A stretch of 64,000 nucleotides of DNA from positions 62,001 to 126,000 of the forward strand of contig JAYZAS010000021.1 of NCBI GenBank assembly GCA_036339585.1. Reading direction: 5' to 3'. The stretch is from Pseudomonadota bacterium. Lineage in GTDB: Bacteria; Pseudomonadota; Alphaproteobacteria; UBA8366. Positions 4,539-25,354 of the stretch are shown here, one piece after another (within the stretch, counting starts at the first letter, position 1; every line of letters begins with the position of its first letter). The position numbers and the translations under genes were made by a program. The notes under the pieces are model-generated. The model worked only from the letters and a program-made list of their open reading frames with translations. It was not told the origin of the DNA and did no database searches.

Positions 4539-4654
4539 AATTGTATTTTATTCCTGACAATTTGTATGAAAAAAACCGTAAAATACTGTGAATTAGGTGA
4601 AAGATGGGGAAGATATTTTTAAGTTAAGAAAAAAGTTAAATTTTTGTTCAACTA

Positions 4655-4683
4655 TTTATATCTTTTCTGATTCAAACTATAGT
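4655..4683 (+). promoter_or_regulatory. Candidate promoter of ssrA
   Basis: TATAGT at 4678-4683 could be the -10 element, with TTTATA at 4655-4660 as a weak -35 at a 17-nt spacing. Transcription would then begin close to 4690, at the 5' edge of the acceptor part of the tmRNA. The -35 matches TTGACA at only four positions, so this is a suggestion. Confidence 0.35.
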
Positions 4684-4889
4684 TGAGGTGCCGGTTCACC
4701 GGCTATGGCGCTAAACGGTTTGCGGAATAAGCGTTGCGGACCCGGGGGCGGTACCCGGCGCCTCCACCATTACACCGATTGGATATGAGTCAGGTGGTTC
4801 TGTGGGGGCGAAATAGGATCGACGCATGTAGTAAAGGCAAACTTTGTTCCCGGCATTGTACCACCGTTATCGGGCTATAGTCGTTAAAT

Positions 4890-4931
4890 GCCAACGACAA
4901 CTTTGCGGGCGAAGCCCGCCTCGCTGCTTAA
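4890..4931 (+). other. ssrA: tmRNA proteolysis tag reading frame (ANDNFAGEARLAA-stop)
   Basis: Thirteen codons starting at GCC and ending in TAA encode ANDNFAGEARLAA. Adding the charged alanine gives an AANDNF start, the region read by SspB in alphaproteobacteria, and an LAA end, the type of C-terminus recognised by ClpX. The middle codons form a perfect hairpin in the RNA: GCGGGC-GAA-GCCCGC at 4905-4919. The resume codon context (AAAT before GCC) fits the family. Confidence 0.93.
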
Positions 4932-4954
4932 CTTCGGTTAAGCAAGCGCGGTTC

Positions 4955-4990
4955 GGGGGGCACCGGGCAACAGAAGCCCCCCACTTTTAA
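4955..4990 (+). terminator. GC-rich hairpin and T-run at the ssrA 3' end
   Basis: The stem GGGGGGC (4955-4961) and GCCCCCC (4976-4982) encloses a 14-nt loop and is followed by ACTTTTAA. It may serve both as the last helix of the primary tmRNA and as an intrinsic terminator. The T-run is short, so read-through into sspB is possible. Confidence 0.55.
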
Positions 4991-21026: not shown

Positions 21027-21277
21027 ATCTCAGTAGTGTTCATCGAAATTTTTTCAGAATCCCATATCGAAGTAATAATCGCTCCGTCCGTGGAATAAAT
21101 CAATGAATTCTATTAGTCTTATGTAAATAAAGGCTGTGATAATTCCACATTTATTTTTATTTAAATATTATAGTTTAATTTATATAGAAATACTATTCAC
21201 TGCCGTATACAATAATATTATTTTTAAAAATTCATTTATTATTCTAATATGCATAAGACCTTTGTAATATGTATAAA
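21027..21277. other. AT-rich intergenic stretch upstream of the oxoprolinase gene
   Basis: Strongly A+T-rich DNA with several TATAAT-like strings and no credible reading frame. It probably carries the promoter of the oxoprolinase gene. No single promoter can be chosen with confidence. Confidence 0.5.
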
Positions 21278-21302
21278 GAAGGGAGGACGCTATCCTCCCT
21301 TC
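21278..21302 (-). terminator. Intrinsic terminator of the 26-codon small gene
   Basis: A perfect 10-bp stem, GAAGGGAGGA (21278-21287) and TCCTCCCTTC (21293-21302), encloses a 5-nt loop. On the minus strand the stem is followed by TTTATAC, while the plus-strand side has no T-run, so it is oriented to end the small gene that stops at 21343, 40 nt upstream. Confidence 0.7.
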
Positions 21303-21342
21303 CGTGAATATGCAGGCACTGAAGCCAGACAAACCCAAAATA

Positions 21343-21423
21343 TTAGGAAGAATTACAAGGTCTCCTTTGCAATCCCATCTGGCGAATTCGACTAACCTTC
21401 GGTGCATCAATATCACTAGACAT
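21343..21423 (-). CDS. Unknown 26-residue small protein with a perfect Shine-Dalgarno
   Basis: A 26-codon frame, too short for routine calling, opens MSSDIDAPKVSRIRQM and ends RRPCNSS. It is rich in Arg (four), has one Cys near the end, and has no signal peptide or membrane segment. Its support comes from context. An extended -10 promoter lies at 21458-21466. The ribosome site is complementary to the last 15 nt of 16S rRNA, with 7 nt from its GGAGG to the ATG. A strong hairpin terminator lies 40 nt after the stop. The whole unit would be a transcript of roughly 175 nt. I do not recognise the family: it does not match PqqA, mycofactocin or methanobactin precursors as I know them. It could be a small protein, a modified-peptide precursor or a leader peptide. 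Confidence 0.6.
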   Translation of the reverse strand: MSSDIDAPKVSRIRQMGLQRRPCNSS

Positions 21424-21425
21424 TA

Positions 21426-21440
21426 GATCACCTCCTTTCT
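21426..21440 (-). promoter_or_regulatory. Full-length 15-nt Shine-Dalgarno sequence
   Basis: On the minus strand this reads AGAAAGGAGGTGATC, the exact complement of the typical 16S rRNA 3' tail GATCACCTCCTTTCT. The GGAGG lies 7 nt before the ATG at 21423, an ideal spacing. Typical genes in this window show only 4-6 matching bases. Confidence 0.85.
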
Positions 21441-21457
21441 GCTGTTTCAGTCCGGTC

Positions 21458-21466
21458 AGTATACCA
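21458..21466 (-). promoter_or_regulatory. Extended -10 promoter of the small gene
   Basis: On the minus strand the sequence is TGGTATACT: a TGn extension followed by TATACT (five of six to TATAAT). A start near 21451 would leave a 5' leader of about 28 nt ahead of the ATG. No good -35 is present at 16-18 nt, which is normal for extended -10 promoters. Confidence 0.55.
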
Positions 21467-24003: not shown

Positions 24004-24663
24004 ATGCGTAGCGTATATTCACCCAACTTTGGTCCGCGCCGCAGAAATACACCAGTCGATATGTTAGTGTTTCATTACACGGGGATGCAAACAGCGCAAT
24101 CTGCCATTAACAAGCTATGCGATCCCGATTCAAATGTAAGCGCGCATTATTGTATAGACGAAAACGGCCTTATCTTTTCATTAGTAGATGAGAGCAAACG
24201 TGCGTGGCATGCAGGTGAGAGTTACTGGCGCGGGGAAACCGATATTAATAGTCGCTCAATCGGCATTGAAATCGTAAATCCAGGGCATCATTTCGGTTAC
24301 TGTTCCTTTCCAGAGAGTCAAATGAACTCTGTTGTAAATCTCTCTAAGGATATTCTGTCTCGTTTTTCTATTCCCGCTTGGAATGTTGTAGGCCATTCTG
24401 ATATCGCACCCGATCGTAAAATAGACCCAGGCGAATTTTTTGACTGGAAAAAACTCGCGGCTGCGGGAGTTGGTGTTTGGCCAACACCCAGAGCTTCCAA
24501 ATTATGCAACTTAAAATTAATGCTTACTAACTACGGTTATGACAGCGAGGCATACAATACGATTGCAGCTTTCCAAAGACATTTTCGCCCGTCTGCAATA
24601 ACTGGCAAAGCCGATGAAGAGAGTTGTCGGATTGCTGCTGGGCTACTCGAATTGGTTACTTAA
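24004..24663 (+). CDS. N-acetylmuramoyl-L-alanine amidase (AmiD/AmpD-like, Amidase_2)
   Basis: Zinc amidase that cleaves the lactyl-peptide bond of peptidoglycan or anhydro-muropeptides. The 219 residues contain LVFHYTGMQTAQSAI (first zinc histidine), VSAHYCIDENGLIFSLVDE, RAWHAGESYWRG, RSIGIEIVNPG and VVGHSDIAPDRKIDPGEFFDW (second histidine and downstream Asp ligand). A C-terminal peptidoglycan-binding-like domain follows (MLTNYGYD, IAAFQRHFRPS). No signal peptide is seen, which favours a cytosolic recycling role like AmpD, but this is not certain. It lies directly upstream of rnpB and the dcw cluster. Confidence 0.9.
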   Translation: MRSVYSPNFGPRRRNTPVDMLVFHYTGMQTAQSAINKLCDPDSNVSAHYCIDENGLIFSLVDESKRAWHAGESYWRGETDINSRSIGIEIVNPGHHFGYCSFPESQMNSVVNLSKDILSRFSIPAWNVVGHSDIAPDRKIDPGEFFDWKKLAAAGVGVWPTPRASKLCNLKLMLTNYGYDSEAYNTIAAFQRHFRPSAITGKADEESCRIAAGLLELVT

Positions 24664-24728: not shown

Positions 24729-25106
24729 CCAGATGGCCGTATGGCTGCCTTTCGACAATGGGGAAACTCGTCGAGGGGAGGAAAGTCCGGGCTCCATAAG
24801 AACACGATGCCGGGTAACACCCGGCGGGGGAAACCCTAGGGAAAGTGCCACAGAAAGGAAACCGCCAAACAATGCCAAGCAGTGTTATGGTAAGGATGAA
24901 AGGGTGTGGTAAGAGCGCACCGCGGCATTGGTAACAGTGTCGGCATGGCAAACCCCATTGGGAGCAAGACCGAATAGGAGTGGCTAATGCGAGTTCTTAC
25001 GCCGCTACTCGGGTAGGTCGCATGAGGCGCTTGGTAACAGGCGTCCCAGATGAATGGCCATACGTCAAATTTTTGACGACAGAACCCGGCTTACAGGCCA
25101 TCTGGT
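24729..25106 (+). ncRNA. rnpB: RNase P RNA (class A)
   Basis: Catalytic RNA that matures the 5' end of tRNAs. The ends pair (CCAGATGGCC at 24729 with GGCCATCTGG at 25096-25105, helix P1). The conserved cores are present in order: GAGGAAAGTCCGGGCTCC near 24778, ACAGAAA near 24851, AGAGCGCACCGC near 24912, GGCAAACCCC near 24946, and AGATGAATGGCC and ACAGAACCCGGCTTA at the 3' end. The length of about 378 nt fits a bacterial A-type RNA. Its place directly before mraZ is common in alphaproteobacteria. Confidence 0.96.
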
Positions 25107-25354
25107 GCATACCCATGTGAGCCGAATCAAACAAATTGTGCACCATAACCCCGATTATTTCTCTGTAGTTACCATTTTTATTTACTCACCTTCAGCAGAA
25201 CAAAAGAAGAATACTTGTGGGTTTTTTGATGACGATCTTTAAATATAGCTTCAGAATACTAGGATTTGTGAATGAAATTTCCAAATAACAATATTGAGTA
25301 GATAAAATTTATTGTAAAAAGATAAGTTTTACCGGCATATTTACTTAAGAATTG
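25107..25354. other. Spacer between rnpB and the mraZ promoter
   Basis: A+T-rich DNA without a credible gene. No clear intrinsic terminator for rnpB is seen; GTGGGTTTTTTGATG near 25217 gives a T-run but no strong stem. Confidence 0.45.

Follow-up and report, generated by a model that had tools for sequence, protein, structure and literature searches.

A stand-alone alphaproteobacterial transcription unit with a 15-nt Shine-Dalgarno sequence and a reading frame that stays open while its peptide drifts, a putative relative of the CC2171 RNA

Dual-function sRNAs, such as SgrS, Spot 42, RNAIII of S. aureus and rnTrpL/peTrpL of S. meliloti, are small stand-alone RNAs containing a short open reading frame (ORF), whose peptide is functional. 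In type I toxin mRNAs (hok, AapA), a strong Shine-Dalgarno (SD) sequence goes together with a start region that base-pairs with 3' sequences of the same transcript, and in hok mRNA this fold-back of the 3' end inhibits the start region. The alphaproteobacterial sRNAs SmelA075 and SmelA099 carry an anti-SD in CCUCCUCCC loops (PMC3927594). The RNA CC2171 (RF01867) is typed by Rfam as an sRNA gene; in the accessible part of the open-access literature it appears only in a Rfam table. No description of a perfect-SD sRNA in Alphaproteobacteria was found in the open-access literature, and open-access papers on S. meliloti sRNAs contained no identifiable homolog of the unit described below.

The window (the whole stretch of 64,000 nucleotides that was analysed) carries on its minus strand a compact unit composed of (i) an extended -10 element, TGGTATACT (21458..21466), with a weak -35; (ii) a 15-nt SD, AGAAAGGAGGTGATC (21426..21440), in the form of the exact complement of the 16S rRNA 3' end; (iii) a 26-codon ORF, MSSDIDAPKVSRIRQMGLQRRPCNSS (21343..21423), whose ATG at 21423 follows the SD after a gap of 2 nt; and (iv) a 12-bp terminator-like hairpin, GGAAGGGAGGAT-AGC-GTCCTCCCTTCT, followed by TTTAT (21277..21303) and separated from the ORF end by 39 nt. 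The preliminary description had placed a 10-bp terminator hairpin with a T-rich tail within 21343-21466; the hairpin exists, but it is longer and lies outside that interval, and its tail is only moderately rich in T. A promoter scan with an obligatory -35 did not list the element at 21466-21458, nor did a simple terminator scan list the hairpin at 21303-21277; the weakness of the -35 accounts for the first miss and the shortness of the T tail for the second. Within the genus, identity from promoter to terminator is 0.85-1.00 compared with 0.59-0.76 in the flanks; the promoter block reaches 0.87-0.94 (0.59-0.71 further upstream) and the terminator hairpin 0.89-0.97. The limits of conservation are thus those of the promoter and terminator, which bears out the earlier view of a small transcription unit that is complete and independent and whose ribosome site is exceptional. 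The predicted RNA (approximately 180-190 nt here, 160-280 nt across the family, judged from sequence) folds more stably than its shuffles (z -3.3).

The assembly (2.79 Mb) contains the exact SD 15-mer a single time, compared with a chance expectation that we estimate at about 0.005 copies, and no copy with one mismatch. The 16S 3' end was not found in the window's own assembly, even with a long pattern; this pattern also failed in single-contig relatives, so the 16S rRNA gene of the window genome is possibly masked or missing. Complementarity was instead checked against two genomes of the same order, whose 16S end (GGCTGGATCACCTCCTTTC) is complementary to 14 of the 15 nt, and in this form the earlier claim of a complement to the last 15 nt holds.

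The same order of elements (promoter, AACAA box, SD, ATG/GTG/TTG-TCN, short ORF, terminator) recurs across the class. The exact pattern GAAAGGAGGTGATCYRATG was found at at least 119 loci among named genomes, all titled Alphaproteobacteria except one MAG labelled 'Pseudomonadota', and a short ORF stood behind it in every locus examined. Allowing one mismatch, 62 of 289 class genomes had matches (a reversed control pattern gave 0), with ATG, GTG or TTG as the start codon among the variants. A sequence-only model (R1), run on 340 class genomes at E<=0.01, matched 133, and in about 100 of them, from many alphaproteobacterial families, the match extended beyond the start codon. R1 matches ending at model position 38 were set aside, their sequence being that of 16S antisense ends. 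In a sample of 249 genomes of the phylum, R1 matched 66 class genomes and one outside the class (G485); the latter match corresponds to the ribosome site at the start of a long, unrelated gene, which by eye we take to encode a 2-oxoacid oxidoreductase-like protein, and no true member was found among the non-alphaproteobacterial genomes of this sample. All these family counts are inflated by the relatedness of the genomes.

No part of the family's sequence is better conserved than the SD, which is kept across the class, although its conservation and that of the start codon stem partly from sample selection, since the initial pattern demanded both. Upstream, an AAC-AA box is present in 122 of 160 members (14% of shuffles) and CTTG[AC] at -75..-40 in 64 of 160 (6% in shuffles). 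There is usually one copy per genome; G052, G387 and G393 have two. In G052 (L170, L247) and G393 (L280, L281) the two copies differ in type, one being of the long-ORF or sphingomonad type and the other of the CC2171-like MSHC type; G393 thus holds a long Azospirillum-like copy and a short CC2171-like one.

RF01867 scores 28.5 bits (E ~1e-4) against the window region and 31.2 against a second member of rhizobial type, below its gathering cut-off of 75. In a search of 193 class genomes it matched 53, six of them above the cut-off, and at many loci its matches coincide with those of R1; the cut-off is exceeded in relatives whose helix P1 (see below) fits the Rfam consensus helix. The CC2171 consensus shares with our unit a 5' block, CAACAA..GAAAGGAGGUGAUCCA-GUGUCU, represented in the window copy by the SD-like GAAAGGAGGUGAUC, a start codon and UCU. 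Both have helix P1 just 3' of the start codon, formed by post-start and pre-terminator segments, with a terminal hairpin directly after it; the cmscan alignment of the window copy put the last hairpin of RF01867 on hairpin P2 instead. The window copy differs from CC2171 in its P1, which is of the A type (AGTGA/TCAC), and in starting with ATG. A chain of intermediates links the members, and the comparison therefore supports the unit as a divergent relative within an enlarged CC2171 family, outside formal Rfam membership. The 75-bit cut-off hides most of this class-wide family, which could be rebuilt: a Rfam-catalogued Caulobacter sRNA appears to have relatives across much of Alphaproteobacteria that were missed by the cut-off and by gene callers. 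Judging from its class-wide occurrence and its relation to CC2171, the unit is not a product of chance, an alternative that had been left standing at first.

In helix P1, codons 2-7 of the ORF (21403..21420) pair with a segment directly 5' of the terminator (GTGCCTGCATATTCACGGA, 21301..21320). Over 134 elements the native partners pair better than swapped ones (Wilcoxon p 4e-23, uncorrected for relatedness); the P1 of the window copy, at -16.3 kcal/mol, is more stable than the pairing of 96% of swapped partners. In pair counts over two subgroups, 95% of cells are paired and covariation exceeds both shuffles and slid registers, with 16 double-changed cells (5.8 in shuffles) and a covariation score of 0.292 (0.148 in shuffles). 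A second hairpin, P2, with a CARY loop near the end of the ORF, occurs in 45 of 87 non-'TCTCAT' members and in 1.8% of shuffles. The window copy has a predicted P2-like hairpin, ATTGCAAAGG-AGA-CCTTGTAAT (21352..21373), without the usual CARY loop. Relative to the ORF, P2 occupies frame 0 in 34 members, frame 1 in three and frame 2 in eight, so that its translation changes, for example, from EQPL-type to KSNLS-type peptides.

The reading frame itself is under selection. All 141 distinct members keep frame 0 open over 15 codons or more, compared with 14-codon openness of 55% in frame +1, 48% in frame +2 and 64% in shuffled sequence, and a stop codon is reached by codon 40 in 96% of members; the 26-codon frame at 21423-21343 (minus strand) had been read correctly. 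The strongest of the rival readings is a small-protein gene, whose function would lie in the 26-residue peptide or its counterparts, with the strong SD as a means to high expression. A frame selectively held open, with start and stop codons, agrees with it, but the peptide does not behave accordingly. Among short-ORF members, pN/pS is 0.75 over 51 independent close pairs (1.26 in sphingomonads, 0.67 in non-sphingomonads), substitutions fall evenly over the three codon positions (89/100/99 in close pairs), and the few ORF changes within the window's genus yield amino-acid differences only. The peptides (14-39 aa) are polar, unalignable between orders in both length and sequence, and without any match in Pfam or NCBIfam. 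In addition, P2 persists across shifts of its reading frame, which the preliminary description had itself named as evidence against a peptide. In these comparisons the frame is conserved and the peptide sequence is not; what matters would seem to be less the protein than the RNA and its translation. The functional peptide or modified-peptide precursor proposed earlier thus finds no support, nor does the suggested link to a methyltransferase acting on Arg residues. In the same respect the short-ORF members depart from the dual-function sRNAs: like these, the unit is a small stand-alone RNA with a short ORF, whereas its peptide sequence is unconserved although the frame is kept.

An exception favouring the small-protein interpretation is formed by members that, behind the same leader and SD, encode 54-59-aa secreted-looking proteins (signal-peptide-like by eye) with the motifs ..ANAECSSSHSASA.. 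and ..AMAECSGSHQAKK... They were found in Azospirillum or Azospirillum-like genomes (L040, L083, L249, L250, L280) and in one family of the window's order (L209, L211, L277-L279), and their pN/pS is mostly 0.2-0.5 (about 0.2-0.8 overall). The long ORF is unannotated in Azospirillum lipoferum 4B p4, and in A. oryzae the site is annotated as a 'hypothetical protein' on the opposite strand. The peptide may have a role in particular lineages, in view also of the pN/pS of 0.67 in non-sphingomonads; for the family as a whole we consider a small-protein gene unlikely.

Somewhat less probable still is that the SD acts as a decoy that only binds and titrates 30S subunits, or senses free ones, with no need for elongation. 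Such a role would agree with the strong conservation of the SD and with the absence from the genome of a second site of 15-nt complementarity, but a pure binding site has no need of the selected open frame, and a decoy would presumably require very high RNA abundance.

Sequestration of the SD by an internal anti-SD was considered as a general property and rejected (median p 0.46 over 137 elements); it is lineage-specific, being clear in L004, L005, L035, L212 and in members from putative Rhizobiaceae-like and Rhodobacteraceae-like families, and an anti-SD segment was not found in most other members of this set. In the Rhodobacteraceae-like members the SD itself is paired. An additional A is present in the SD of the Rhizobiaceae-like members (AGGAAGGT), and this form of the SD has its complement in a segment behind their stop codon (ACCTTCCT/GCCTTCCT). 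In L230-L234, the SD with the inserted A (AAAGGAAGGTGATCC) is accompanied, right behind the stop codon, by a complementary ACCTTCCT/GCCTTCCT-like segment, apparently an internal anti-SD that co-varies with the SD. After the stop codon of L004 lies, in its orientation, GATTGGATTACCTCCTTTCAG, which mimics the 3' end of 16S rRNA almost perfectly and is predicted to pair with the RNA's own SD at -26.5 kcal/mol. SmelA075 and SmelA099 are likewise alphaproteobacterial RNAs with SD/anti-SD complementarity; they carry the anti-SD, whereas the present unit carries the SD itself together with a reading frame.

The genes beside the window copy encode an oxoprolinase (PF02538/PF01968/PF05378) and a TPR-sulfotransferase (PF13469). 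This adjacency is common to the genus only; other orders have different genes beside the unit, and no conserved neighbour or co-oriented downstream gene was found across lineages. By its genomic context, the unit stands alone. A cis-acting leader peptide or attenuator of the downstream gene is consequently very unlikely: the short ORF, the alternative pairings and the terminator resemble those of classical attenuators, but the downstream genes vary by lineage and the unit has its own terminator, so that this reading is already largely refuted, and with it the earlier suggestion of an oxoprolinase leader. Least credible is a type I toxin mRNA of the hok kind, in which the 3' end of the RNA would occlude the start region behind a strong SD. 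The contact between start region and 3' segment does resemble hok-type fold-back inhibition, but the short-ORF peptides are polar and unconserved instead of hydrophobic, and the distribution is class-wide, mostly single-copy and vertical-looking.

A small RNA controlled by ribosome binding and translation best fits the combination of perfect SD, start region engaged in P1, frame kept open regardless of its sense, and lack of a linked gene. We therefore favour, with a probability of roughly 55%, a stand-alone regulatory sRNA or mini-mRNA of the enlarged CC2171 family, whose fold would be set by ribosome binding and by translation of a disposable ORF. The perfect SD would capture 30S subunits at the start codon, and the codons that follow would be held in P1 by the 3' segment immediately preceding the terminator. 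A ribosome that binds and translates the short, sequence-neutral ORF would open P1 and P2, and without ribosomes the RNA would close on itself. Thermodynamic folding lends this reading no support as to exposure of the SD, which is 0.34 unpaired in the predicted folds and 0.32 when the flanks are shuffled. Translation may in this manner set the fold, stability or activity of the RNA, whose output would be an activity in trans rather than a peptide. Going further, and tentatively, the RNA might read ribosome availability throughout the class, translation of a meaningless ORF switching it between an open and a closed form, both active in trans, and peptide-neutral translation would then itself be the signal; we regard this as possible, though doubtful. 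Selection that holds a frame open while the peptide drifts, beside one of the strongest possible ribosome sites, would offer a clean case, open to test, in which translation serves as a signal and not for protein, in laboratory organisms that include Caulobacter, Mesorhizobium, Azospirillum and Sphingomonas.

Two further RNA genes were identified on the plus strand of the window. RNase P RNA of class A (RF00010) is located at 24729-25109, downstream of an amidase-like ORF (24004-24663, named by eye), and several small ORFs listed around it are spurious. A permuted (two-piece) alphaproteobacterial tmRNA gene (RF01849, 263.5 bits) is located at 4651-4985.
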